29,556 nucleotides of DNA from a virus, in IMG/VR virus record IMGVR_UViG_3300033571_026852, positions 1-29,556 of that record; one strand, 5' to 3'. A model generated the notes under the pieces. The model ran no database searches. It saw only the letters and a program-made list of their open reading frames with translations, and had not been told where the DNA came from. The position numbers were made by a program, and so were the translations under genes. Shown here in pieces: positions 1 through 29,556 of this stretch (positions within the stretch are counted from its first letter, which is position 1; every line of letters begins with the position of its first letter).

Positions 1-90
1 ACTGGTGCTACTGGAGAAACTGGTCCAACTGGTGCTACTGGAGAAACTGGTGCTACTGGAGAAACTGGTCCAACTGGTGCTACTGGAAGT
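1..90 (+). repeat. Short tandem repeats coding a collagen-like stalk
   Basis: An 18-bp unit beginning actggtgctactggagaa recurs almost perfectly, interspersed with 9-bp actggtcca units, and codes Thr-Gly-Ala / Thr-Gly-Glu / Thr-Gly-Pro triplets. The array runs off the left edge. The low divergence between units means length change by slippage is plausible. Confidence 0.85.
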
Positions 91-3000
91 GGAGGAGGTG
101 GAGGAGTAACAGAAGTCACATATGATGAACTCACAGCTCTTATAAATTCCGATGATCTAGTTGTTGGATCATACTATTCGATTACAGATTTTCAAACTTG
201 TTATGATCAACCTGATTATGATTACAATGGAAGTGCTATCATAAATGGAGGAACTGGGGCAACTGGTAATTATAGAACAGGAAGCGTTTCACCCATAATT
301 GTATTCGCTATAGATTCGAATTCTTTAGCATCTGATGCGTATCAACCCCAATGGCCGAATGATAACATTAAATATGATATTACATTTAATCAAACCGAAG
401 CAACATCTAATCCTGCATTTGGTAGAATAACATATAGAAAAGACAACCAAGGAAACGAATTTGATTACGACTTTAGAGAAGTTCTTTTCAAAAGATATGA
501 CACATACATTTCCGACAATGTTTATGTAGGAACCGCCTCTCTTGAGTTTTCAATATTAGGTGCCAACTTTGCTGATGTAACAGGAGTTGGTACTACTTTT
601 ACTGATTTCACAACTGGACAGATTGTTGGTATTTTGAATTTAATCACTGATCCTATTGTAACCTATTACGAAATTATATCAATCGAAGATGATACCAATA
701 TGGTCGTTACTGGAAATGTAATTACTACTCTTAATAATACTCGTTTATTAAATGCAAATCTATTAGAAGGAATGTCTTGGAAACAAAACAATATTCCGTC
801 TAATACAGATTCAGTAGAATTACCAACCTTTGTTGATATAACTGAATGTTTTAATAACACATCTACAAATACAGCTGCATTTGAGGTATGGGATGAAAAT
901 ACTTTCTTATTACCAAACAATGTATTCAAAGGTGAAAACCTTTATAGAGATAATTCATTCTCACAAGGTTTTCGAAATAACACATTTAATGGTGCTAGTT
1001 GTAACTCTAATAGAGTTATGGATAGATTTTATAATAACATTATTGATAACGATTTTGATAATAACACAATCAATGATCAGTTTTACGATAATATAATAGA
1101 TTGTGATTTTCAAAACAACACAATTAATGGTGAGTTCTACAATAATCATTTCGGAGATTATGATGAGAATGAGGATTTTGATTATAATACCATTAATGGT
1201 AGTTTTTATAATAATTTTTACACAGGAGATGATAATTTTGAATATAACATAATCAACGGAAGTTTTTACCAAAACATCATACTTGATGAGTTTAGTAAAA
1301 ATACTCTTAAAGGGTTTTACGAGAATGTGTTAGAAAATGATTTTAGTGATAATCAAGTAGGCGAAGGGTTTGGGGGAAATAAGACATACGCAGAATTTAG
1401 AGAAAATGTAATATGTGATGAGGTTTATGATAATAACTTCTATAGCACATTCATGGGAAATACATTAACGGGTGATGAGATTTATAATAATAACTTTTAC
1501 AGTTATACTGAGGATAATCAAATTGGGGCAAACTTTCAAGAAAACACCATAGGAGATCCGGGAGAACTAGCCAATTTTTCTTTTAGCAGAAACTGCATCG
1601 GAACGGATGCGAAAGGGAATCTCATATCAGGTTCTTTCGAAGGAAACAAAATAGGTTACTTATTTGGAGCTAACGAAATAGGAGATAATTTTAACAATAA
1701 CAATATTGGAAATTATTTCGTAGAAAACGATATACTAGATGGGTTTTCAGACAATTTTATATTGAATACGTTTGGCTATAATAACATAGCAAATGGTTTC
1801 AAAGGTAATAGAATTGGTAATAGTTTCACAGGAAATACTATTGGTGATGACTTCGGTTATGGCGGCTCAAACTGGAGAGGTAATGTGATTGGAAACTATT
1901 TTGCTGATAATAACATCGGTGAGTATTTCTACAATAACAACATCGGAGACAACTTCGAAAACAATACGATAGGCAATGACTTCCAAGCTAATAGAATAGA
2001 AACACCATTATATTCAATAGATTTTACACCTAATTATGGCAACCTAATAGATTTTACATATACCGCACTGGGGGCATCAGGGGCAACGGCTACTGATAAT
2101 ACCTATGTAGGATTAACTGGAACATCAAACGGGCCTGGTGTTGATGCAACTTTTGATATTGAAGTGTCTGGAGGTATCGTTATTGGGGTTACAGGTGATG
2201 CACCAGGTAAGTTATATCAGACAGGTGAAACAATAACAATAACAGGGAATAAAATTGGGGGTTTAACTGGTGTCATCACCACATTTTCAACCGATAATTT
2301 GAGTGTTAAAATTTATAAACCTGCCAACTCAACATACGAATATCCAGCTGATGAAACAGAAATGGATTATCTAATAGACAATAGCCCTCTTTTTGCTACC
2401 TACTATTCTCCTAATATCCAGGAGGTTTCATATTCAACAAAAACAGGTGCTCAGCAAAATAACTACGGAATGGTTATCGAGGGTTATATACAGATACCTT
2501 CTGATGACACATATTATTTTGGGTTAAGTAGCGATGATGGTTCAGACGCATTCATTAACGAAATTAAAGTTGCTGATTGGTATGGTCCTCATGGCGCTAG
2601 TGGAAACACTCCGGGAGGAAATCAGTATCCTATACCATTAACAGTCGGAACATATCCTATTAAAGTTAGATTACAGGAAAGAGATAATACAGACTCTGTA
2701 AGTTTACTATATAGTTTGGATAATGTCTCTTGGAACATAATACCAGATAATTGGTTTCCTCTTAATGTAACAGGCTCTGAAGGTTCATACCCTAATATAC
2801 CCGCCACAGGTGGTGTTGGAATAGGTTCAACTTTTGATGTTACAGTTGTTGATGGATTGGTTGATAGTGTGACTTTAAGCGATGGTGGGGGTTATTATTC
2901 AGTTGGAAGTACATTAACGATACAAGGAAGCACATTCGGGGGAATACAAGATATAAACATAACTGTTGATCAAATTTATTCTGATGACGTAGTTATTACA

Positions 3001-3135
3001 GTTACGGATGTTGGTCCTAATCCATCTGTTTATGAATCCTATACTTGTCAGATATTTGAAAGACAGGGTGGCGATAAGAGATTGTCGTATTACGATTCTT
3101 CGGATGTATTGACAATTAAAGATATAAATCAGTAA
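1..3135 (+). CDS. Large collagen-like tail fibre / adhesin protein, 5' end outside window
   Basis: The frame is open from base 1 to the TAA at 3133-3135, so at least 1044 residues lie in the window and the start is upstream. Order of parts: a Gly-X-Y collagen-like stalk (window residues 1-35); a module with SITDF and later ITYRKD and YDFR motifs (about 36-170); a long solenoid of nine-residue repeats of the form [F/Y]xxNxI (about 320-667); then two related beta-rich modules (about 700-760 and 934-990) flanking a PA14-like domain (about 763-925, with the SSDDGSDAFI core typical of PA14). PA14 domains usually bind carbohydrate, so a role in host-surface recognition is likely. The SITDF module recurs in the fibre gene at 16219, so the two are probably partly paralogous. 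The TTG at 634 is an internal leucine codon, not a start. The exact place in the virion is not shown by the sequence. Confidence 0.8.
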   Translation, partial: TGATGETGPTGATGETGATGETGPTGATGSGGGGGVTEVTYDELTALINSDDLVVGSYYSITDFQTCYDQPDYDYNGSAIINGGTGATGNYRTGSVSPIIVFAIDSNSLASDAYQPQWPNDNIKYDITFNQTEATSNPAFGRITYRKDNQGNEFDYDFREVLFKRYDTYISDNVYVGTASLEFSILGANFADVTGVGTTFTDFTTGQIVGILNLITDPIVTYYEIISIEDDTNMVVTGNVITTLNNTRLLNANLLEGMSWKQNNIPSNTDSVELPTFVDITECFNNTSTNTAAFEVWDENTFLLPNNVFKGENLYRDNSFSQGFRNNTFNGASCNSNRVMDRFYNNIIDNDFDNNTINDQFYDNIIDCDFQNNTINGEFYNNHFGDYDENEDFDYNTINGSFYNNFYTGDDNFEYNIINGSFYQNIILDEFSKNTLKGFYENVLENDFSDNQVGEGFGGNKTYAEFRENVICDEVYDNNFYSTFMGNTLTGDEIYNNNFYSYTEDNQIGANFQENTIGDPGELANFSFSRNCIGTDAKGNLISGSFEGNKIGYLFGANEIGDNFNNNNIGNYFVENDILDGFSDNFILNTFGYNNIANGFKGNRIGNSFTGNTIGDDFGYGGSNWRGNVIGNYFADNNIGEYFYNNNIGDNFENNTIGNDFQANRIETPLYSIDFTPNYGNLIDFTYTALGASGATATDNTYVGLTGTSNGPGVDATFDIEVSGGIVIGVTGDAPGKLYQTGETITITGNKIGGLTGVITTFSTDNLSVKIYKPANSTYEYPADETEMDYLIDNSPLFATYYSPNIQEVSYSTKTGAQQNNYGMVIEGYIQIPSDDTYYFGLSSDDGSDAFINEIKVADWYGPHGASGNTPGGNQYPIPLTVGTYPIKVRLQERDNTDSVSLLYSLDNVSWNIIPDNWFPLNVTGSEGSYPNIPATGGVGIGSTFDVTVVDGLVDSVTLSDGGGYYSVGSTLTIQGSTFGGIQDINITVDQIYSDDVVITVTDVGPNPSVYESYTCQIFERQGGDKRLSYYDSSDVLTIKDINQ
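958..2001 (+). repeat. Nine-residue (27-bp) degenerate repeat array coding a solenoid
   Basis: Within the first fibre gene an aromatic residue (F or Y) recurs every nine residues in most of the tract, followed three residues later by Asn and five later by Ile or a similar residue; later copies favour FxxNxIGxx. Roughly 35-40 copies fit. The DNA of the copies is strongly diverged, so the pattern is kept by selection on protein structure. An elongated beta-helix with an Asn ladder is the natural reading, but that is inference. Confidence 0.75.
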
Positions 3136-4497: not shown

Positions 4498-6816
4498 ATG
4501 GAAAAAAATAATAATCCAGAGATCGACAGATTAAACATGGAGACTTCAAAAAGTGTTGCTGAATCAATGAAGTCTTGGGGGGGTTTGGATGTTTCTAAAT
4601 CACCTGTTGCATCTTCTTTTCTTAATGGGTCAACCGCCCAAATGTTGAAAGAGTCTGCAAACAACGAATATTTTCCAAAATCAAACAATACGGTCTTCAG
4701 TTTTGGATTAGTTAATACCATCTCAGCTTTGCGTAATTCTACTCTTAACGAATTGCCTGCGGGAAAAATATTACTTGACAAATATGAGTCCTTGATTCTT
4801 CATAACGGAATTTCAGAAGCTTTTGTATTTGAATCTTTTTTGAACGATCTCAAGTCATTTTCTTGGGAGACCTCAGTTGTTTCTGTGGTGGAAAATTTGA
4901 ACCAAATATTTGCCAATAGAAGAAGGGAAATTGAAGTTGTTAAAGTTTACGAATCAATTAAGGCAGCTCCGGGAAAAGATTTGTTTTCTGATGCAACTTC
5001 TCAAATGAAGAATTGGTTAATTTCAGAAAATCATGTTTCTGATACATTGATTCACGGATTAAAAAGATTTGGATTCAATCCTTTGGTTAGAAACCTCGTT
5101 AGCTTCCTTTCACTCCACGAAAACAGCAATCCAAACAAGTTCAATCTTGGTGTTGATAATAACATTTGTCACGTAACTAATATTTATTCCCCAATAATGG
5201 TTACAGAAAGTGGATCCATTTTCTTTTCCAGTGGGAAATTTTTAGCAATTGACGATGCATCTAAAACTATCAATGAGTGTTCAGCTGAAGATGTTCCAGC
5301 AGATTTTCAAAACAAGGCTCTTGTCGTTGTAGATAGAGAGGTTAGAATTGATGGTGACAGAATTTCTTTGAATGTTGGTAAAAGTAAAGTTGACATTGTT
5401 TTCGAAAATGAACAAAAGAGAATTTACTTAGATGGCAAACACATTCATGAAGCAGATCTTCCAGCTGCTATTAGTGTGACCACAAACAACCTTTTAGAGA
5501 ACTCTAATTATAAAGCGGCTAAAGCTGCTTTCATTGCACAAACGGCCGATGAAATTGTAGATATCGATTTTGGTAAGAAGATCAAATCAAAATTATACGA
5601 AGGTGTGGAAGCAAACATTTTCAAGTATGAAAACAGAATTTACGTGCAAACAGTAAATCCTGCGATGCGCTTGAACAAGATTTACGAGTCAAACGCAACC
5701 CAGGCCATCAATATCATCAAAGAGTTCATGAAATATGACATTTCTGAGTCTCTAACAGAGTTCTTACAAGGGGAACAAGCTTTCTTAAGTGTCATGAAAA
5801 ATGATAAGAAAGAGATTGTTAAAAACATTGAACTTCTTGAGGCAGAACTGATCAAGATCACGAAAGTAAAATCAGAAAATCCTTTGATCGCAAATTCCAC
5901 ACAATTATTAAATCTAGAAGAGTCCCTAGAAAATGAACTTCAGATTCTAAAGGATAAATGGAACCAAATTAATGTTGGGATCAAAAGATTCGAAAGTTCA
6001 GCAAATGAAATTTCTGTTAACGAAGAAATGGGATATCCTATTGATACAGAGGTTAGAATCAAAAGAAACGGTAATAAGGGTAAAATCGTAGGTGTAGATG
6101 GTAGTTCTAAAACATATACTGTTTTATTTAAGGAAGGTAAAACCGGAGAATATTTCTTCTCTGATGTTGAGGATTTAGTTGATGAGGTAGATAACTACGA
6201 CATCCAAACTCCCGACATGAGTCTAGAATTTAGTGGTGAGGCTAATGAGGCTATGAACCAAGGATTCTCTACTGCACCTGCTCCAACAAGAGGGACAAAA
6301 AAAGATGGTGCTTTGATGGGACAAGCTCGTAAGAATATGGCAGCTGCTCCTTCGAAACAAACAAAGTCTAGCCCTAAATTCATCAACGATCCAAAAAATG
6401 CTAACATGGCCAGTGTTAAAGGTGAAGCTAAAAATTCTCCAGTGACTGGTTCAGCTAAAACGAAAAAACAAAACCTAGCTTCAGCTCCAGGTGGTAAAAG
6501 TGGTAAAGGCAAAAACTTTGCACAGGATCTAAACAATTCCAATCTTGCAAAGGCACCTTCGTCAGTCATTAAAAGTGCATCTAAATTTATCGAAGATTTA
6601 AAAGGTCACAACTTGGCTTTAAAAGAAAGCCAGAAGAACTCACACATTGAGAAAGCTCCTAAAGCCAAGATGCCAAAGCCAAAGAAGTTTATTGAAAAAG
6701 AAACAGATGCTAATTTGGCAGAAGCGCCAGGAAATCACAAAAGGAACAACAAGAAGTTTATGGAAGACGAAAAAAGAGCTACTCTTTCTTCTGCTCCTAA
6801 AACAAAAAAAAAGTAA
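4498..6816 (+). CDS. Large unknown, possibly virion-associated protein with basic repeat tail
   Basis: A 772-residue protein that I cannot assign to a family. Visible parts: a mixed alpha/beta N-terminal half; a helical, coiled-coil-like segment (about 440-500, rich in Leu, Glu and Lys); a small SH3/KOW-like stretch (about 515-560, VRIKRNGNKGKIVG then YTVLF); and a lysine-rich C-terminal tail (about 592-772) of 23-residue repeats with the core NLAxAP...KFIED. The basic tail could bind nucleic acid or capsid. The triplets I-S-E/A and I-Y-E/S fit the prohead protease rule and would be consistent with a head protein, but that is weak evidence. It follows a strong late-promoter candidate, which supports late expression. 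The ATG is chosen because it sits 18 nt after that element. Confidence 0.7.
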   Translation: MEKNNNPEIDRLNMETSKSVAESMKSWGGLDVSKSPVASSFLNGSTAQMLKESANNEYFPKSNNTVFSFGLVNTISALRNSTLNELPAGKILLDKYESLILHNGISEAFVFESFLNDLKSFSWETSVVSVVENLNQIFANRRREIEVVKVYESIKAAPGKDLFSDATSQMKNWLISENHVSDTLIHGLKRFGFNPLVRNLVSFLSLHENSNPNKFNLGVDNNICHVTNIYSPIMVTESGSIFFSSGKFLAIDDASKTINECSAEDVPADFQNKALVVVDREVRIDGDRISLNVGKSKVDIVFENEQKRIYLDGKHIHEADLPAAISVTTNNLLENSNYKAAKAAFIAQTADEIVDIDFGKKIKSKLYEGVEANIFKYENRIYVQTVNPAMRLNKIYESNATQAINIIKEFMKYDISESLTEFLQGEQAFLSVMKNDKKEIVKNIELLEAELIKITKVKSENPLIANSTQLLNLEESLENELQILKDKWNQINVGIKRFESSANEISVNEEMGYPIDTEVRIKRNGNKGKIVGVDGSSKTYTVLFKEGKTGEYFFSDVEDLVDEVDNYDIQTPDMSLEFSGEANEAMNQGFSTAPAPTRGTKKDGALMGQARKNMAAAPSKQTKSSPKFINDPKNANMASVKGEAKNSPVTGSAKTKKQNLASAPGGKSGKGKNFAQDLNNSNLAKAPSSVIKSASKFIEDLKGHNLALKESQKNSHIEKAPKAKMPKPKKFIEKETDANLAEAPGNHKRNNKKFMEDEKRATLSSAPKTKKK
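6337..6813 (+). repeat. 69-bp repeats coding a basic NLAxAP / KFIED tail
   Basis: Cores of the type N-[LM]-A-x-A-P begin at about 6337, 6403, 6472, 6541, 6610, 6643, 6712 and 6781. Spacing is 66-69 bp except one 33-bp step at 6610-6643, which looks like a half-unit inserted or lost. The linker usually holds K-F-[IM]-x-[DE] and many lysines. The copies differ at DNA level, so the array is old and selected. Confidence 0.75.
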
Positions 6817-7949: not shown

Positions 7950-8539
7950 AACCTTTCAATCAAAGATTTGAGGATTTTAGATTACAATCTTCCACTCTCA
8001 ATTCTCCAGGCGAGGATTCTTTTCTATTCTGGTTTGAAAATTACGTTAACCAAAGAAAAGAATTCAACCCTGATGAATTTCTAACGGGAAAGGTTTATTC
8101 TTTTGAGTATAATGACAAACTGGAAAAAAGTAAAAAATTCATAAATAAAAGACCCGTTGTTTTTTTTACCGGGTATTTCATAAAAGAAGAAAAAAATCTT
8201 TTCAGCGGTATTGATTTAATTCTTATGCCTCCGATGATCAGAATTCCATTCTTTACAAAAATTCAAAGTGTATTCGGTTCCCAGATCGAAACCAACATCA
8301 AAAAAGTTGAAGAGGGACAGGCAAAGAGTCAAATTCAGTTCAAAACTGACTATGAAACTCTCAACACCATATTAACTGGAATTCCCTTCAAGAATTCCTA
8401 CAGGGTGTGGGATCTTAAAAAAGTGAGAGACATTATAGAAATTCCTGTCGAAGAATGGACTAGAATAGTTTATCTTCACACTAGAGCAATTGAAGGGACC
8501 CCGATTGAAGAGATATATAAGAAAAATATGCAGTTTTAA
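7946..8539 (+). CDS. Conserved-looking unknown phage protein (197 residues)
   Basis: Begins at an ATG overlapping the gp4 stop and ends at a TAA whose last base is the first base of the portal start, so it is tightly coupled to head genes. Recognisable features are only general: GKVYSFEYND (48-57), a hydrophobic RPVVFFTGYF stretch (69-78), and GIDLILMPPMIRIPFF. This resembles a type of small protein often found among structural genes of T4-like phages, but I cannot name it. It does not resemble T4 gp53, which follows gp4 in T4. The portal promoter candidate lies inside its 3' end. Confidence 0.7.
   Translation: MKPFNQRFEDFRLQSSTLNSPGEDSFLFWFENYVNQRKEFNPDEFLTGKVYSFEYNDKLEKSKKFINKRPVVFFTGYFIKEEKNLFSGIDLILMPPMIRIPFFTKIQSVFGSQIETNIKKVEEGQAKSQIQFKTDYETLNTILTGIPFKNSYRVWDLKKVRDIIEIPVEEWTRIVYLHTRAIEGTPIEEIYKKNMQF
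8511..8521 (+). promoter_or_regulatory. Candidate late promoter (AGATATATAAG) for first portal gene
   Basis: An ATATATA core at 8513-8519, inside the 3' end of the preceding gene, ends 19 nt before the portal ATG at 8539. Spacing matches the elements before 4498, 16219 and 23783 (18, 18 and 19 nt). Being inside a coding region lowers certainty. Confidence 0.45.
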
Positions 8540-10128
8540 TGGCTGGATTTACTGACGGAAAGAAAACATTTTTTGATACAATAATCGAAAACATTAGGAA
8601 AGTAGGCAGTTTTGGAATGGCCTATGGAGATCTCGTTGTCAAAAATTCACAAGCCGTTGGGGTCACTGAAGCACAGTTTCTCAAAAAAGGAGGGATCAAA
8701 GATGAGGCTTTTCTATTTGGTTTAAAAAGATCTGATACAACAACAAAGCAATACATAGCTTATTTTGATAAAGATTTTAAGAACAAAAGACACTATGTAC
8801 AGGGTTTTGCACAAAACCCAGAGATTGAATTCATTCTTGATACAATTTGTGACGAATCGATAGTTTACGACGAGAAAAACTTTTGGGCTTATTTTTCTTT
8901 CATGCAACATGATGATGTGGATGAAGATGTTTCTTCTAAGGTTCAAAAAAGATATAAGGAAATCTATAATTTGTTTGGGTTTAACCAAGACATTCTTGCT
9001 TGGCACCTCTTCAGAAAATTTCTGGTCGAGGGAAATCTATCATTCGAAATCATATTTGACAAGAAAGGAAAAAACATCATAGGATTCAAGGAGATCGATG
9101 CTGCTTCATTAGTTCCCACAGTTGAGCAGCAACCAGATGGTTCTTATGTTGACATTTGGATTCAATACCCAGATAATCCGTCACTCACAAGAAAACTTTA
9201 TGACTCCCAAATTATCTACATAAGTTATGCAAAGGGTGGAGGAACCGCTGCTAGAATTAGTTATGTTGAGAGGCTTATTAGGTCATTTAACTTATTGAGG
9301 ATTATGGAGCACACCAGAATAATTTGGAACGTGATGAATTCCTCATTCAGGATGGCGATGACAGTTCCTATTGGGACCAAATCCCCACAGAAAGCCAAAC
9401 AAACGCTTGGTGAATTGATGAGCATTTACAAGGAGGACATAAGACTCAACACTGATAGTGGTGAATTGACTGTTGATGGACGTCCTAAGATTCAATTTTT
9501 CAAGAACTATCTCATGCCATCCTCACCGAATGGTACACCTGATATTCAGCCATTGACTGGAGCAGGAGACGCAACTGCTTTTTCTGACACGAAGGCTCTG
9601 CAATATTTTGCCAACAAACTTCGGATCGATTCTAAAGTTCCTGCCAGTAGGTTCGGTAGGGATGATTCTGGATCAGAGGGAACTATCACATTCTCTGCTG
9701 ATGGTCTAGACCAGGAGGAAATAAGATTTGGTAAGTTTATAAATCGTCTTCGCTCTATCTACCAAGAGATTCTGATGAAGCCCCTTTGGGTCCAATTTTG
9801 TTTGGACTTTCCACAAATGAAAAATGACTATCTAATCAAATCGGAGTTTGGATTAGATTACGTTAAAGAGAACATGTTCAAGGAGGCCAAAGAGATGGAG
9901 GTAATGACAGCAAGAAAAGACCAGGTCATCAAAATACTAGGCTTGAAAGATTCAGAAGGCAAGTCATATTTCAATTTGAAATTTGCCCTAGATAGATGGT
10001 TAGGGATGTCTAACCAAGATATGCTCGACAACGAGAAATTCAAAGAAGAAGCCAAAAAGAAAAAGGAAAAATCAGGAGAGGGAGAAAAGAAAGAAGGCGG
10101 TGAAAAAGAGGGAGAATTTACAATTTAA
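8539..10128 (+). CDS. 20: Portal vertex protein gp20-like, copy 1
   Basis: A 529-residue homologue of T4 gp20, which forms the dodecameric ring at the head vertex through which DNA is packaged and ejected, and which starts prohead assembly. Family signatures: AYFDKDF (74-80); EFILDTICDESIVYDEKNF (about 94-112); RIMEHTRIIWNVMNSSF; MTVPIGTKSPQKAKQTLGEL with YKEDI shortly after; and KPLWVQFCLDFPQMKND near the C-terminal third. It ends in a Lys/Glu/Gly-rich tail. A second, clearly paralogous portal gene follows after only 3 nt. Copy 1 has a middle segment with TPDIQPLTGAGDATAF that differs from copy 2. Nothing suggests decay in either copy. Confidence 0.88.
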   Translation: MAGFTDGKKTFFDTIIENIRKVGSFGMAYGDLVVKNSQAVGVTEAQFLKKGGIKDEAFLFGLKRSDTTTKQYIAYFDKDFKNKRHYVQGFAQNPEIEFILDTICDESIVYDEKNFWAYFSFMQHDDVDEDVSSKVQKRYKEIYNLFGFNQDILAWHLFRKFLVEGNLSFEIIFDKKGKNIIGFKEIDAASLVPTVEQQPDGSYVDIWIQYPDNPSLTRKLYDSQIIYISYAKGGGTAARISYVERLIRSFNLLRIMEHTRIIWNVMNSSFRMAMTVPIGTKSPQKAKQTLGELMSIYKEDIRLNTDSGELTVDGRPKIQFFKNYLMPSSPNGTPDIQPLTGAGDATAFSDTKALQYFANKLRIDSKVPASRFGRDDSGSEGTITFSADGLDQEEIRFGKFINRLRSIYQEILMKPLWVQFCLDFPQMKNDYLIKSEFGLDYVKENMFKEAKEMEVMTARKDQVIKILGLKDSEGKSYFNLKFALDRWLGMSNQDMLDNEKFKEEAKKKKEKSGEGEKKEGGEKEGEFTI

Positions 10129-10131
10129 AAG

Positions 10132-11772
10132 ATGGCAGGATTTATAGATAATTTAGGGAAAATCAACCCCAACGTTTCAAGAATCATTAAAACGATCAGT
10201 GGATTGGGATCCTTTGGAATGGAATACAAGGACATGGTGATTCAGGATTCGATGGCAATCGGTATTTCTGAAGCCAACATGAGAGAACGATTCGGATACG
10301 CTCAAGATGATGAGGATTTCATTTATAGTATTGCAGCGCAAGATTCATCTAACAGAAAATACATTGCCTATTTTGATAAGGACTACCCTGTAAGAAGGGA
10401 CTTTCTAAGAACTTTTGCGCTCAACTCCGAGATAGAATACATTCTAGATACTCTTTGTGACGAGGGGATAGTTTATGACGAGAAAAACTTCTTTTGTCAT
10501 CCCGCAACCATGAACATGGATTTGAAGGATGAGGTCATGAAAGCTCTAAGAAAGAATTTCAGAAAGCTCTACGTCCTACACAACTTCACCAACGGATTAA
10601 CAGCTTGGCAATACTTTAGACAACTTCTGGTAGAAGGATTTCTGGCATTTGAAATCATATATTCTAGTGATGGAAAGGATATAGTTGGATTCAAAGAATT
10701 GGATGCAACAAGTTTGACCCCTGCGGTTGAAAAGAAACCTGATGGTACCAGAGAGAGTGTCTGGTGGCAGTATTATGGAGAGACAACTAGACAAAGAAAA
10801 TTGTTGGATGCTCAATTGATTTACATTTCTTATGCTAAATCAAACACGGTTGCTAGAACATCTTATTGTGAAAGACTAGTTCGATCTTACAACTTGTTGA
10901 AAATCATGGAGCATTCTAGAATCATTTGGAATGTGATGAACTCCCAATATAGAATTAAGATGACTGTTCCAATAGGGAGCAAGTCTCCACAAAAGGCAAA
11001 GGAAACATTGGGAGAGCTAATGTCTGCTTATAAAGAAGATATTAAGCTAGACACAAGTTCTGGAGAACTTGCTATTAATGGTAGACCAGATTTGCAATTC
11101 TATAAGAACTATCTTTTTCCACAAGCTGGGGGAGAATCAACCAAGGTAGAGACGATCAATGCACAAGGTCCCAATCTCAACATAATGGATTCTGTAGTTT
11201 ATTTCTATAATAAACTCAGAATGGATTCTAAAATTCCCTATAATAGATTCTCAGCAAGATGGGGATCTGGTTCTGCAGCAGCTTATAAAATACCAGCCGA
11301 TGGTTCTGAAAGGGATGAAGTGCGTTTTGCCAAATTCATAACTCGTTTAAGATCTATTTTCCAAGAGATCATGGTGAAGCCACTTTGGATCCAGATGTGT
11401 TTGGACTTTCCCAATTTAAAAAATGATTCAGAGTTTAGAAGCCAAATAGGAATCAAATATGAAAGCGACAACACGTTTGGTGAATCTAGAGAAATTGAGC
11501 AACTACTCAAGCACATAGATTTTATTAATTCATTGGGTGAAATCAAAGAAACCGTCAATGAAGAGGAGGTACAATATTTTGACCAAGACTTCTTAATTGA
11601 AAGATGGTCGGGTCTTTCATATGAAGACATAATGGCTAACAAAAAATATAAGCAAACAGAGAAGGTTGAATCGGCTCCTGCTGAAGCTCCAGAAGGAGGA
11701 GCAGAGGAAGAGGCACCAGCGGCCACTCCTGAAACCGAAGCCCCTGCTGAAGGAGGAGAGGAGACAGCTTAG
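10132..11772 (+). CDS. 20: Portal vertex protein gp20-like, copy 2
   Basis: A 546-residue paralogue of the preceding portal gene, sharing all its signatures: AYFDKDY, YILDTLCDEGIVYDEKNF, KIMEHSRIIWNVMNSQY, MTVPIGSKSPQKAKETLGEL and KPLWIQMCLDFPNLKND. It differs from copy 1 in the N-terminal 60 residues, in the segment around QAGGESTKVETINAQG, and in the C-terminal tail, which is rich in Ala, Pro and Glu (APEGGAEEEAPAATPETEAP) instead of Lys/Glu. Both copies look intact and co-transcribed. Mixed rings, a division of labour, or one copy being an assembly or regulatory variant are all possible. Which copy builds the vertex cannot be told from sequence. Confidence 0.88.
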   Translation: MAGFIDNLGKINPNVSRIIKTISGLGSFGMEYKDMVIQDSMAIGISEANMRERFGYAQDDEDFIYSIAAQDSSNRKYIAYFDKDYPVRRDFLRTFALNSEIEYILDTLCDEGIVYDEKNFFCHPATMNMDLKDEVMKALRKNFRKLYVLHNFTNGLTAWQYFRQLLVEGFLAFEIIYSSDGKDIVGFKELDATSLTPAVEKKPDGTRESVWWQYYGETTRQRKLLDAQLIYISYAKSNTVARTSYCERLVRSYNLLKIMEHSRIIWNVMNSQYRIKMTVPIGSKSPQKAKETLGELMSAYKEDIKLDTSSGELAINGRPDLQFYKNYLFPQAGGESTKVETINAQGPNLNIMDSVVYFYNKLRMDSKIPYNRFSARWGSGSAAAYKIPADGSERDEVRFAKFITRLRSIFQEIMVKPLWIQMCLDFPNLKNDSEFRSQIGIKYESDNTFGESREIEQLLKHIDFINSLGEIKETVNEEEVQYFDQDFLIERWSGLSYEDIMANKKYKQTEKVESAPAEAPEGGAEEEAPAATPETEAPAEGGEETA

Positions 11773-16173: not shown

Positions 16174-16191
16174 GGTTGGCTGTTGAAGTCC

Positions 16192-16201
16192 GGATATATA
16201 C
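16192..16201 (+). promoter_or_regulatory. Candidate late promoter GGATATATAC before fibre gene
   Basis: This 10-mer is identical to that at 4471-4480 and has the same 18-nt spacing from the ATATATA core to the ATG (16219). It lies in the 45-nt gap after the replication block, where a switch from early or middle to late transcription would be expected. Confidence 0.65.
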
Positions 16202-16218
16202 ACCAAACTTCTTCCGGA

Positions 16219-19200
16219 ATGCAGGAATTAAATCAAATCAGTATCAAACAATTATTGGCCTCGAACACCATAGGGGCTAATAACTCGATAACCAACTCCA
16301 ATTTTGCTCAGATAAATGAAGCACTAAGACTTATCAATGGTGCTTTTGGTATTTCTATCCAAGAAAGATCTATGAACTTTCCTTCGGGAAAGCTCAATGT
16401 CGGAAGTCTGAAGTCCAATTTGGTAAGACTTCCTATTCAAGGCAATACTGCTATCCAATTAAACGGAAGTAATGGAGAAGTTCTTGCAAATGGATTGAAC
16501 ATCACCAACGATGCTTTCATCGGAAGACACGCCATTGTTGGGAACGCAAATACAGGAGGAAGACTAAGATTAATTTTAGATAGAACTTATCCCAATCCTC
16601 TTTTACAGCCAGGACTTCCTGGTCAAGTCAGATACATTGGGGACGACTTTGAAGGATATACCGAATATGGAGAAGTTCAAGCAACATTTTCTTTCACGAT
16701 TGATTCAACAGGAACAACGGGACAAAGCATAAGTGTTGTTTATAATGGCACAACTGCTGGAACAGCTTCTTGGACATTCAACAATACAATCACGGCTCAG
16801 GAGCTTACTAACGCCATATTGACCAACACCACAGGTCCTTGTTTAGCTTCTTACAATCTCAATACCGTTACGATTATAGCCTTAGCAGGTGCAGGATCAT
16901 CTGCAAATGGTGACACAGTCGTACTTTCTGGTCCTTTGCCAGTCAGTCCAACTTCAGGCTCAATGGCCGGTGGTGTTGATGGTGTTGGCACTTGGGTTTC
17001 ATTCACAGGCGTAACCGGTACTGCAGGTCCGACCGGACCAACTGGTCCTGGTGGTGGTCCCGCTGGTGTCACAGGTGCAAAAGGTGCAACAGGAAATGCT
17101 GGGCCTACTGGTCCAGTGGGTGCCACTGGCGTTGGAATAACAGGTCCTACTGGATTAGGACCAACAGGACCAACAGGAATTGCAGGACCGACTGGTGAAA
17201 CTGGACCTCAAGGTCCACAAGGACCAAAAGGGACTGTAGGTAACACTGGACCAAAAGGAGATGCAGGTGTGACAGGAGCAAAAGGAGCAACTGGTGCCAG
17301 TGTAACAGGTGCCAAAGGAAGCACTGGAGTAACCGGACCAGCAGCCACGGGTCCCACAGGTCCTACTGGCACAAATTGGACATCTGGTATTGGCGCTCCA
17401 TTTAACCCAGCGAATCCGGGCGACCTTTATCTAGATGGTCAAACTGGTAATGTGTTTGTTTATTCGTCAGGTGTTTGGAATCTCTCTTACAATTTAAAGG
17501 GATTGACAGGCACAACTGGGGCAACTGGTGATGGCGTTACAGGAGCAACAGGAACCAATGGAACAACCGGGGCCACAGGCCCAACTGGAGCAGGATCAAC
17601 AGGACCAACTGGACCAGTAGGACCTACCGGAGCAGCAGGATCTATTGGCACGATGCCTTATTTAGATCTTTCTAATAATTCTATCTCACAAAGCATATCT
17701 TCCGGTGGTAATTTACCGGTGAAGTTCGATACCACTAATTTAATTGATTCTTTATTCTTCGCAACTGGAGATTATGTCCCTTCTGGAATCACAGGCACTT
17801 ACTTCGAAACTTTAGTTGCTGGAAAATATTTTGTGAGCTATAAAGTTGGATTAGATAACACAGATGCGAACGCTTCCTCTCTAATTACTACAAGATTGAT
17901 GAGAAGTGTTTCTGCTCCAGTAGAGGTTGCAAATCTGAGAGCATTCAAAACTATCGAGAATGTAGCAGGGTCCGAAGCCCCTTTCGAAACTGTTATAGTG
18001 ACTGGAATTATTGATTCCGCTGCAAACGACAAGTATTGGGTAAAAGTTGAATATGATGCAGGTGGTGTAGGAACTGTAAATGTAACATTAGGAGACACTG
18101 GTATTTCAGTACTTTCACTTTTAGGGCAAATGGGACCTACTGGCCAATCCGGCATCACTGGTCCTACTGGACCTGGGGGAGGTCCGGCAGGACCTGCCGG
18201 ACCAACAGGAGCAGCGGGTGAAACTGGTCCAACTGGTTCTGCTGGAGCCACTGGTCCAACTGGAGGTGGGGCAACAGGACCAACAGGAGCAGCTGGTGCC
18301 ACTGGACCAACAGGATCGGTCTCTACAGTGTCTGTGAGTTATGCAACTTTTTATGCAGCTCTGACAGGAGGAACTTTGACCCCTGGGGCTTTGTATTTGA
18401 TCAATGACTTCGCCACCACTCATTACATTTTGGAGTGTGCCTCTCCCACAACCAACACAGGAACAACCGAACCAATTTATGTGCTTGCAACAAGTGCAAC
18501 TACAATTGATAAAAGAGTTATTTCTAGCATCTATCCTCAAGATTTGATCTATTGGGACCCTGATCCAGCTAGTTTTTACAACGATGAAGCCTTCACAACT
18601 GCAGCAGCTCCTACTACAATCATTTCAGGATTCAAGGGGGGAATTACTCATCGCAAAGACACCACTAGAAATATAGAGGCTTACTATGATTGGAGAGCAT
18701 TCGTTTTCAGAAGGTGGAGATTGGATTCTGCGATTTACACTGCTACTTGGACAAGTTTGGTTTCTTATTCAGTTGGAGCTATAGTGACAGCCGGTTCAAC
18801 ACTTGATTATTTCTTGTGTCTAATCGCAGATCCCAGCTCTAGTTTGAATCCTTCTGCGGGATCCAACGGAAGGTGGATCAAGATATTCGAGGCCGGTGCC
18901 GAGTACGTGTTTGCTCAACCATATAACCACGTAATCAACTTGCCAGACGGCACAACGTTTACTGTGCAAGTAGACACTTCTGACTTTAATGATTATAAAT
19001 CCGTTGATGTGACCGAATTCGACGATATAACGAACATTTCAATTGCTACATTGGCTGTCCCCCAGTCAAAAACGTCGACATGGACATCCACCCCTGTCTA
19101 CTCATCAAAGATACCAAACAACATCATAGTTGGGGAGGCAACAGCAGGAAAGAAAGTAACTGATGTATCCTTTGATGGACATTCCAACGTGAATACACTC

Positions 19201-19728
19201 ATACTAGGCTCGGCTACGACTGCTTTATCAGGAGCTAGGTTTCAGTCCTCTTATTTCAACATATTTACACAAACAATACCAAGTGGCTCCACAATCACAA
19301 GTTCTGACTTCAAGTTTTTGTTTCAGGTTATTTTAGTTGGAACAATAAATTATTCTAAAATAATGAATTTCCAGGAAGCTATCATACAAGGATCTTTGTC
19401 GAATACGCATATTACAGCTTGTGAATCGATCACCTCATCGCGAAACATTCTTGGAAGTAATTTGACACGAATATCTGGGTCTTACCTTTACTCCAGAGTG
19501 GAATATTCCGATATTATGGATTTCAGTAACTGTTACTTAGGAAAGAAGTCAACAGCGACAATATTTCAGTTTACAGATTTGTATAGTGTCGATGGGGAGG
19601 ATTTCGAGACATCCACTTACATTTATTCAGCAAGTTATGCCAAGAAAGTCATGGGTACTACTGGAGCTTCTTATGTTCTTTACATAGATAACAATGGAAC
19701 TGTTCAAACAGATTTGACTACAAATTAA
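16219..19728 (+). CDS. Collagen-like phage fibre / receptor-binding protein
   Basis: A 1169-residue structural protein. Residues 1-150 look like an attachment region ([19 protein letters not shown]...). Three Gly-X-Y collagen-like stretches follow (about 265-384, 429-478 and 638-699). Between the second and third is a C1q/TNF-like beta sandwich (about 479-634, with [13 protein letters not shown] and [10 protein letters not shown]) like those that cap collagen stalks in spore and phage fibres. After the third comes the module shared with the fibre gene at 1-3135 (YLINDF, then GGITHRKD and [11 protein letters not shown]), a CBM5/12-like segment (about 839-888, [14 protein letters not shown]), and a beta-rich C terminus. 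I chose the ATG at 16219 over TTG 16183 because the latter would contain the promoter element. Likely role: binding host surface polymers. Confidence 0.82.
17011..17370 (+). repeat. Collagen-like Gly-X-Y stretch 1 of fibre gene
   Basis: About 120 residues of Gly-X-Y triplets, mostly GPT, GAT, GAK and GPQ, coded by GC-richer sequence than the surroundings. A short break, [20 protein letters not shown], follows before stretch 2. Confidence 0.85.
17503..17652 (+). repeat. Collagen-like Gly-X-Y stretch 2 of fibre gene
   Basis: About 50 residues of Gly-X-Y triplets ([12 protein letters not shown]) leading directly into the C1q/TNF-like domain. Confidence 0.85.
18130..18315 (+). repeat. Collagen-like Gly-X-Y stretch 3 of fibre gene
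   Basis: About 60 residues of Gly-X-Y triplets following the TNF-like domain and leading into the module shared with the fibre gene at the left edge. Confidence 0.85.
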
Positions 19729-27104: not shown

Positions 27105-29198
27105 ATGGAAAACAATAAAAACCTGGACTATGTCCTGATTTTGGAGAAATCCTCGAAGAATCTTTCTAGTATGAAGAAAGATGGAGAGTATTTTCTGGAA
27201 GGAGTAGCGGCTGTATTTGGAGTCGAAAATTCTAATCATAGAATTTACGAAGAGAAAGAATACTTGCCTCACTTGGACTATTTGAAGAAGAAGATTGACC
27301 AGAATAGACTTGTTGGTGAATTAGATCATCCGAAGGAATTTGATGTTTCTTTAAAAAATATTTCTCACATCATCATAGACTTAGAGTATGACAAGAGCAA
27401 TCGTCTGGTGAAAATCAAAGTTAAGTTGTTGGATACTCCAGCAGGAAGAATAGCTAAAAGTCTTGTTGATGCTGGTATTCCGATCTCTATTTCTTCGAGA
27501 GCAGCTGGAAATGTAAACAATGATAAGAAGGTGGAGATTAAAAAGATTTTCACGTATGATCTTGTGGCAGATCCTGGATTCGAAAATGCACAATTAGAAA
27601 GAGTTCAAGAGAGTTTATATGAGAGTTTAGGATTCGAATCTTTCAATGTCGAGCAAAAAAATTCAATAATTTCCACTCTTACTAATATAAATGAAAGCTT
27701 TGGATTGAGAAAAAATTCTAATGTGCAGATATATAGAATCAAAGACTCTGAGAAAATATCCAGACTTTTAAAAGAAAACATAACAAATAATTCTAAGAAT
27801 ATGGACAATAACTTTGTCACTGCAGAAGAACTAAACGAATATTCTCTCATCCTTAAGAAGGAAATGAATTCTTTAAGAAACGAGATAAAATCAGCTAATA
27901 GAGGATCTGGTGGAAGCTCTGATTTAGAGGAAAGAGTTAAAAGGCTAGAGAAATATTCTGAGTATTTGGCTGAAAATTTGGAGTCTTCAATTAAGTATGG
28001 TGATTATTTAGCTGAGAACTTGGAAGGATCAATTTCTTACAATAAATATCTAGCTGAAAATCTGGACAAGGCTATTTCATACGCTAAATATCTTGCAGAA
28101 CATGTTGATGGGAATATCTCTTATTCCGAGTATATTGCAGAAAACCTAGATAACAATATTGCTTACAGTAAATATTTGGCTGAAAACTTGGATAAGAACA
28201 TTTCTTATTCCGAATACTTGGCTGAAAATCTAGACAAGAATATCTCTTACTCTGAATATCTTGCTGAGAACTTAGATCAGAACATTTCTTATTCTGAGTA
28301 TCTTGCAGAGAATCTTGACAGAAACATTTCTTATTCGGAATACTTGGCTGAAAATCTCGACAAGAACATTTCTTACTCTGAATATCTAGCTGAGAATTTA
28401 GACAGAAACATTTCTTACTCTGATTATCTAGCTGAGAACTTGGATAAGAACATCTCTTACTCAGATTACTTGGGAGAAAATCTAAATGGTAATATTAACT
28501 ATTCTGAATATCTTGCTGAGAAAGTTAAATCTGGAATTGAATACACTCAATATTTAGCTGAGTCAATTAACAACAGAGGAGGAATCGCTCAGGATAATCT
28601 CGGGAAACAAGTTAACGAATCAGTTTCTACAGGAAAGAGAACTTCAGGATTCTCAGGTGATTACACTTCATTATCAAGCAAAGTTGACCAATTAATTGAG
28701 TCACTAAATACAAATAAAACCAACGAGCTCATTAGTGAGAACAAATATTCTTTCTTGAAGCTAGTTGATGACAGAACTAAGAAAGGTTTCCTTTCTTTGA
28801 ACGAGGCCGAAAAACAAAAGGTCGTGAAAGCTCTAAACGAGTCGAACTACAATTCGGGTACGGATGTAGCTCAAATTATGGGGTCTGCTTTAACTGAACA
28901 AGCTAAATCAGGTGAAAAATTCCTAGACATGATGCCAGAAGATTTGGTACCTGTTTGGGCGTCTCTGAATGAATCACAGAAAGGGTCTATTATCGCCCAG
29001 AGTAAGTTTTATCATTTAGATACTCCTTATCAGATCAACCACTTCTGGAGAACCCGTCCAGGTTTCAATACACCTGCAGCTAGCTTAGAGCAGTTGAACG
29101 AGTCCCAGACAATCCAACCTGATGCGGTAAGAACAGGGGTAAGTAATGCTTATCTCCAAAACATCGCAGCAGAATTGGATAAAAGATTCAAAAAATAA
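27105..29198 (+). CDS. 21: Prohead protease fused to repeat-bearing scaffold-like protein (gp21-gp22-like)
   Basis: A 697-residue protein. Residues 1-170 are a T4 gp21-type prohead protease: EGVAAVFGVENSNHRIY, GELDHP with catalytic His75, ISISSR with Ser130 or Ser131 as nucleophile, and YDLVADPGFENAQL. T4 gp21 is a separate protein of about 212 residues. Here the chain continues into a helical region: residues 284-493 are fifteen 14-residue repeats (YSEYLAENLDKNIS), followed by a C-terminal domain ending near HFWRTRPGF, as expected for a scaffold core protein like gp22, whose gene normally lies between gp21 and gp23. No separate gp22 gene exists here. Many [LI]xE/[SNA] triplets, including LAE/N in most repeats and INE/S and LNE/S, fit the protease's own cleavage rule. 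An in-frame ATG at 27801 could give scaffold alone. Confidence 0.85.
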   Translation: MENNKNLDYVLILEKSSKNLSSMKKDGEYFLEGVAAVFGVENSNHRIYEEKEYLPHLDYLKKKIDQNRLVGELDHPKEFDVSLKNISHIIIDLEYDKSNRLVKIKVKLLDTPAGRIAKSLVDAGIPISISSRAAGNVNNDKKVEIKKIFTYDLVADPGFENAQLERVQESLYESLGFESFNVEQKNSIISTLTNINESFGLRKNSNVQIYRIKDSEKISRLLKENITNNSKNMDNNFVTAEELNEYSLILKKEMNSLRNEIKSANRGSGGSSDLEERVKRLEKYSEYLAENLESSIKYGDYLAENLEGSISYNKYLAENLDKAISYAKYLAEHVDGNISYSEYIAENLDNNIAYSKYLAENLDKNISYSEYLAENLDKNISYSEYLAENLDQNISYSEYLAENLDRNISYSEYLAENLDKNISYSEYLAENLDRNISYSDYLAENLDKNISYSDYLGENLNGNINYSEYLAEKVKSGIEYTQYLAESINNRGGIAQDNLGKQVNESVSTGKRTSGFSGDYTSLSSKVDQLIESLNTNKTNELISENKYSFLKLVDDRTKKGFLSLNEAEKQKVVKALNESNYNSGTDVAQIMGSALTEQAKSGEKFLDMMPEDLVPVWASLNESQKGSIIAQSKFYHLDTPYQINHFWRTRPGFNTPAASLEQLNESQTIQPDAVRTGVSNAYLQNIAAELDKRFKK
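27954..28583 (+). repeat. Fifteen 42-bp repeats coding 14-residue YSEYLAENLDxNIS units
   Basis: The array is exactly in register: unit 1 starts at 27954 and unit 15 at 28542. Central units 6-12 are nearly identical in protein but vary in codons, and the outer units are more diverged, as in arrays that grow and shrink from the middle. Fourteen residues equal two heptads, so a continuous helix or coiled coil is likely. Thirteen of fifteen units carry Leu-Ala-Glu; unit 5 has Ile-Ala-Glu and unit 13 Leu-Gly-Glu. Confidence 0.95.
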
Positions 29199-29209
29199 GA
29201 TCTATAAAA

Positions 29210-29556
29210 ATGCAACTCTTAAATCAAAACGAGATCTACGAAACGTGGTCTCCAATCATTGAGAGCAAGACTGGCATGACTGATCGTACAAAAGTTGAAT
29301 GGCTTTCTAAATATTGTCATTTCCACTCATTGAACGAATCGGCTGGAGCCTATAACTCTCTTTCTGTTCTAAACGGCATGGGTAACATCCTGCCTCCAGG
29401 TAACTATTCAGGTGGTGCTGCTGGTGCAGGTCCTGCTGGTTTTTACTACAACAACACTTACAACGCTGGTACTCCATATGTTGGTTCTGGTGATAAGTTC
29501 CCTTCATTACTTCCATTGGCTATTCAGGTAGCTGCTAAAACCGTTGGTTTTGACAT
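29210..29556 (+). CDS. 23: Major capsid protein gp23-like, 3' end outside window
   Basis: The first 115 codons are present. The N-terminal region matches T4-type major capsid proteins: WLSKYCHFHSLNES (31-44), NGMGNILPPG (54-63), then GSGDKFPSLLPLAIQVAAKT and VGFD. This is the main shell protein, whose N-terminal peptide is removed by the prohead protease during maturation. LNE/S at 41-44 fits the [LI]xE rule and would leave a mature chain starting at Ser44; IIE/S at 16-19 is a second candidate. Codon use shifts to GGT, GCT and AAC, as expected for a very highly expressed gene. The start is 11 nt after the protease-scaffold gene, preceded by TATAAAA and no Shine-Dalgarno sequence. Confidence 0.93.
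   Translation, partial: MQLLNQNEIYETWSPIIESKTGMTDRTKVEWLSKYCHFHSLNESAGAYNSLSVLNGMGNILPPGNYSGGAAGAGPAGFYYNNTYNAGTPYVGSGDKFPSLLPLAIQVAAKTVGFD

Follow-up and report, generated by a model that had tools for sequence, protein, structure and literature searches.

In bacteriophage T4, the prohead protease gp21 cuts its substrates after the sequence L/I-X-E (PMC9026906, PMC9958956). The scaffold protein gp22 is digested by gp21, and the resulting fragments exit the head through the shell (PMC9026906, PMC9958956, PMC5694885). The gene for gp22 is situated between those for the protease and the capsid protein. The gp22 protein is helical and, as a known gp21 substrate, is enriched in the cleavage motif, with 16 copies of [LI]xE in 269 residues against 5.8 expected by chance, while spacing controls are flat.

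In some other phages the protease and the scaffold are joined. Tenacibaculum phage pT24 and the Prevotella Lak phages encode a single ORF composed of an S77-type protease, a variable middle and a scaffold-like C-terminal part. The middle of the pT24 protein is irregular and rich in [LI]xE, whereas that of the Lak proteins is acidic and is not. Neither fusion contains a regular repeat array, and no description of repeats in the scaffolds of huge phages was found in the open-access literature.

The window analysed here, a 29,556-base virus record that is itself a fragment (IMGVR_UViG_3300033571_026852), encodes a fusion of the same general kind which, unlike those of pT24 and the Lak phages, contains an array of 14-residue units. 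Judging from its sequence, it is quite likely that a huge T4-like phage uses this gp21-type protease-scaffold fusion as the core of its head assembly, and that the units of its array are cut sites for the attached protease.

Organization of the locus

The features of the locus are as follows; a slash marks the predicted cut.

27105..29198, plus strand: ORF encoding the fused prohead protease and scaffold, 697 amino acids (ORF list, phrog_207, Pfam); the coding span of the 697-residue protein is given as 27105-29195
27105..27629, plus strand: predicted N-terminal protease domain, about residues 1-175 (AlphaFold2 match to 5JBL, hhalign, invariant columns)
27687..27698, plus strand: candidate self-cleavage site INE/S, residues 195-198 (conserved motif between protease and scaffold)
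27954..28583, plus strand: fifteen tandem units of 14 residues, every one spanning two coiled-coil heptads and bearing one [LI]xE
28584..29195, plus strand: C-terminal part of the scaffold, in which about residues 540-650 form a helical domain (AlphaFold2, alignments)
28833..28844, plus strand: candidate site LNE/S, residues 577-580 (E in 63/65 sequences, P3 L/I/M)
28965..28976, plus strand: candidate site LNE/S, residues 621-624 (E in 61/65, P3 L/M, P1' G/S)
29094..29105, plus strand: candidate site LNE/S, residues 664-667, in a disordered tail (P1 E in 61/65)
29210..29554, plus strand: start of the major capsid protein gene, truncated by the end of the window (relative is Gp23)
29330-29341, plus strand: candidate capsid maturation site LNE/S, residues 41-44 (LNES in 87/92 relatives)

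The capsid gene is of the Gp23 type, the full-length protein of a close relative being Gp23 (PF07068, 8e-39), and it begins 11 bases past the protease-scaffold ORF, so that the scaffold occupies the position of a gp22-like gene. A close search recovered 34 related loci, and a profile search gave 477 confirmed matches in viral contigs. Also related are the huge phage records LR756500-LR756504 and LR745206, of 462-735 kb, and the 697-residue protein belongs to a phage clade that includes them. These records encode the same fusion, in proteins 36-40% identical to that of the window, with an array of 12-14 units (degenerate in LR756500) and a capsid site of the form [LIM]xE/N; in some, the unit is also found in genes other than that of the scaffold.

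The N-terminal domain matches the head maturation protease family phrog_207 (3e-37) and, above cut-off, the Pfam S80 (3e-9) and S77 (2e-8) families (PF03420, PF20034). A profile search of PDB sequences gave no match; with Foldseek, the best match of the AlphaFold2 model among solved structures is T4 gp21 (5JBL, E 6e-9). In hhalign alignments the motif GELDHP (His75) pairs with GELNHP of gp21, and SSRAAG (Ser130/131) with SSRGLG. The columns of the catalytic His and Ser motifs are invariant across relatives. As regards the Asp of the triad, D152 and D156 are both invariant in relatives, and the gp21 alignment stops short of both. By sequence and by model, the domain is a predicted T4-type (S77/S80) prohead protease. 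With T4 gp21 (MEROPS S77) and S80 relatives such as phiKZ gp175 it has in common the fold, the His and Ser motifs, the position before the capsid gene and the presence of candidate aliphatic-x-Glu sites, one of them right after the catalytic domain. Unlike gp21, it is fused to the scaffold in a single ORF, and its activity and specificity are predicted.

The scaffold half has no scaffold family match in PHROGs or Pfam, and for this reason it is classed as gp22-like in its working, and not as a gp22 homologue. Like gp22, it lies between protease and capsid, is helical and is enriched in [LI]xE, with 26 copies in about 523 residues. Sites occur at a comparable density in the two scaffolds; those of gp22 are scattered, whereas those of the window array are regular, one per 14-residue coiled-coil unit. 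The helices of the C-terminal scaffold part are predicted by AlphaFold2 with pLDDT 60-75.

The repeat array

An earlier note on this DNA had described fifteen 14-residue units at 27954-28583, nearly all of them with L-A-E, I-A-E or L-G-E and mostly followed by N. The array coincides exactly with residues 284-493, is gap-free and perfectly phased, and has [LI]xE in every unit. The unit sequence is Y-S-E-Y-L-A-E-N-L-D-K-N-I-S. Positions P3-P1 read LAE in thirteen units, IAE in one and LGE in one, while P1' is N in twelve and H, K and S in one each. The further sites that had been listed in the flanks were also found, at residues 195-198 (INE/S), 565-568 (LNE/A), and 577-580, 621-624 and 664-667 (LNE/S), as was LNE/S at residues 41-44 of the capsid protein.

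The hydrophobic moment, computed from the mean hydrophobicity of the units, has its maximum at 103 degrees per residue, or 3.5 residues per turn, and the rod is therefore probably a coiled coil. AlphaFold2 models the array as a helix at very low confidence (pLDDT about 30-40), too low to show packing. The claim that the repeat is purpose-built for chopping up the scaffold holds in so far as the array evolves like one of Glu-specific sites; its 14-residue period, however, is foremost that of two coiled-coil heptads. The array is thus probably a structural rod into which cut sites are integrated, more than a spacer for chopping, and its cleavage would yield 14-residue peptides.

Conservation of Glu7

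With the register of the units determined blind to position 7, 126 proteins yield 469 distinct units, of which 458 (98%) have Glu7 and all 469 an aliphatic P3; these counts are not independent, since the units of an array share ancestry. Substitution of Glu7 by Asp occurs just twice among these units, as against 65 occurrences of D at position 3 and 40 of E at position 10. On a tree of 65 proteins, position 7 has the lowest rate within the unit, 0.13, approaching that of the catalytic residues (0.04-0.11). In heptad geometry it is equivalent to position 14, and both are 176 degrees from the hydrophobic face, yet position 14 evolves at a rate of 1.02. Since both lie opposite the hydrophobic face, packing is not the reason for the conservation of Glu7. 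At the DNA level the Glu7 codon alternates between GAA (596) and GAG (352), with the residue altered in 16 of 964 DNA units; it is therefore the residue that is kept and not the DNA.

The way in which units erode is also informative. Among 16 distinct units that have lost Tyr1, Tyr4 and Ala6, all retain an aliphatic P3 and 14 retain Glu7 (for example LTER, ISER, MDES, LNEK, LSEK and LEES), and Glu7 is retained in 86 of 91 units without Ala at P2. In LR756500 (L038) only 7 of 12 units have Glu7. The clade of this record has fewer units, and its most degenerate members keep Glu7 in 56-67% of them. A scan of the whole clade that ignored position 7 found Ala at P2 in 34% of units, Tyr4 in 60%, Glu7 in 86% and an aliphatic P3 in 100%, as in VNEN, IIEN, IKEN and LVEG. 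LR756500 on its own was considered as counter-evidence and dropped, because across its clade P2 is released from constraint and Glu7 is still found in 86% of distinct units. Read from these alignments, the pattern of erosion, aliphatic-free-Glu, is the profile expected of a short protease motif. Tyr1, Tyr4 and Ala6 are also conserved, so that part of the unit must serve a purpose beyond the [LI]xE rule. Comparison supports the proposal that the repeats evolve as a series of sites for a Glu-specific prohead protease would, and the geometry of the array is apparent together with selection for one aliphatic-x-Glu in each unit.

Candidate sites outside the array

Within the repeat, [LI]xE occurs 15 times, where shuffling of the repeat gives 5.3. 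Units that arose by duplication cannot be counted as independent, and the non-repeat scaffold therefore provides an independent test. Here, [LI]xE was counted 11 times, compared with 4.0 after shuffling, and [LI]xE[SNAGT] 8 times, compared with 1.5 (p about 0.001), whereas the spacing controls [LI]E, [LI]xxE and [LI]xD are not enriched; in the C-terminal scaffold part alone there are 7 copies of [LI]xE against 1.9 expected. An excess of [LI]xE in the non-repeat scaffold is also found in nine other relatives, with p below 0.03 in seven and marginal values (p about 0.05) in two. The scaffolds of syn9, PA5oct and pT24 are likewise enriched; in the scaffold of the Lak phages no [LI]xE enrichment was found.

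Motifs of the same type recur at each place where a cut would be expected. At the capsid site, LNES is present in 87 of 92 relatives (one of the other five entries being a mis-picked ORF), and distant relatives have INEN, IHEN, LYEN or MNEN. Near the same place in the capsid proteins of other phages are LVE/N, LME/N, ILE/S and LTE/T. All clades keep [LIM]xE/[SN] at this site, which left a test for covariation with changes there uninformative. The junction of protease and scaffold reads [ILVM]-N-E-[SNA] across 65 proteins, one row being gapped at P3, and N196 and E197 are invariant. Its location matches that at which T4-type proteases are processed, their C-terminal end (PMC9026906). Many relatives of the window protein have a further [LI]NE immediately before the protease domain. 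T4 gp21 carries a comparable motif, LIE-9.

In the C-terminal scaffold part, the tail site at residues 664-667 lies in a region for which AlphaFold2 predicts no structure. It has L or I at P3, a fast-evolving P2 (rate 2.41), a slow P1 Glu (rate 0.21) and S or N at P1'. The site at 621-624 falls between two predicted helices and could instead be a helix N-cap. The cleavage rule put forward in the earlier note, [LI]xE/[SN], stands as to type, while the true rule would be wider, an aliphatic residue [LIVM]-x-E. P1' is mostly N or S, is G in one protein family, and is K or H in roughly one in four of the units of the repeat, where it may reduce cutting.

The family with G at P1' is encoded by the gene after the capsid gene, in which [LIV]xE/G is found in 22 of 22 sequences. 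The product is an unknown head-cluster protein (for example L002 9865-10944) with a conserved N-terminal [LIV]xE/GLG site, and its sequence makes it a probable internal head protein that bears a propeptide. Within the window, 4498-6813 encodes a protein of 772 residues and unknown family, whose gene precedes those for head closure, the end protector and the portal. The protein is conserved in the clade, contains [LI]xE[SNAGT] 13 times against 3.4 expected, and may be regarded as a candidate substrate of the same protease.

Unit copies in other proteins

Short runs of the unit are found in unrelated small proteins of huge phages: L118 (LR745206 460483-460635), L116 and L119 (LR756501, about 620 kb and 716 kb) and L218 4184-4411. 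One such protein has collagen-like repeats and two have a C-terminal hydrophobic helix. There are four units in an 83-residue protein at 460 kb of LR745206, and three in a 210-residue protein at 620 kb of LR756501. Glu7 is present in 8 of 13 copies outside the scaffold, the lost forms being LAAS, VASY, LSQS and LASK; as these copies are few and were found with a profile favouring Glu7, the comparison of Glu7 loss is suggestive only. It has been considered that the unit is a reusable head-assembly brick, short runs of which serve as tags that pair with the rod and so bring cargo into the head, to be cut or kept depending on Glu7. This idea is speculative and improbable.

Alternative explanations

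The array might be purely structural, with Glu7 engaged at a second interface, through a salt bridge or a hydrogen bond to the Tyr stripe, the shell or adjacent rods, and the scaffold being cut elsewhere, if at all. The moment peak at 103 degrees, or 3.5 residues per turn, is in keeping with a structural rod, Tyr1 and Tyr4 are nearly as constrained as Glu7, and the array persists where Glu7 is partly lost. Yet Asp, which is accepted at positions 3 and 10, is nearly never found at position 7, and aliphatic-x-Glu also occurs at sites that are not part of the repeat. Moreover, the two features can be separated: eroded scaffold units keep LxE without Tyr, while the copies outside the scaffold keep Tyr, often without Glu7, although the latter observation is suggestive only. 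A purely structural array is considered unlikely, if not negligibly so.

Two further explanations treat the cleavage motif as incidental or accidental. Were the array a ruler, the number of units would set the length of the scaffold and hence the size of the head, and this number is indeed narrow for a tandem repeat, mostly 13-16. However, records of 735, 642, 636 and 462 kb carry 13, 14, 13 and 12 units respectively and close relatives vary by 1-2 units, so there is no visible link between unit number and genome size. A head-size ruler, which leaves Glu7 unexplained, was rejected as unit number does not track record size, and is thought very improbable. Alternatively, an ancestral unit that by chance contained LAE might have been copied recently without selection. 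Adjacent units of the window array are almost the same, as would follow from duplication or conversion, but such an expansion does not explain a Glu7 codon that varies while its residue rarely changes, or why no position of the unit evolves more slowly on the tree than position 7; this explanation is scarcely credible.

Other genes of the window

Two tandem gp20-like portal genes are present at 8539-10128 and 10132-11772, sharing a frame and separated by TAA AAG ATG; their products are 49% identical over 515 residues. The pair is kept in five of six relatives searched and was not found in the remaining one, a 97 kb fragment (G013). T4, LR756502 and LR756500 have one portal gene each, and LR756501 has one and a short weak match. 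It would be unusual for a portal ring to be made of two paralogues. In relatives the two genes seemed to be fused (open frame 1093), an artefact produced by translating past a stop. Two large proteins, encoded at 1-3135 and 16183-19728, contain collagen-like Gly-x-y repeats, and the second of these matches tail-fibre families.

A model for scaffold removal

If the units of the array are indeed cut sites, the following model can be proposed. The fifteen units would form a long coiled-coil rod that helps to build the prohead core, each unit presenting [LI]-A-E/N on its solvent-exposed side. Once the shell is complete the protease would be activated, releasing itself at INE/S (residue 197) and trimming the capsid protein at LNE/S (residue 43). 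One cut in each unit would reduce the rod to peptides some 14 residues long; these would leave the head, making room for DNA. The identity of the cut sites, the order of events, and the size and exit of the peptides are all predictions from sequence.

The strategy itself is that of T4; what is new is the regular array, with one site per two-heptad unit, and its fusion to the enzyme. Little is known of how the heads of very large phages are assembled and emptied. If the model is correct, it would give the clade to which a 735 kb record belongs a named scaffold, together with a cleavage rule that is open to direct test. The array would then be a natural structural rod designed for disassembly at regular intervals, and could serve as a self-removing assembly template.
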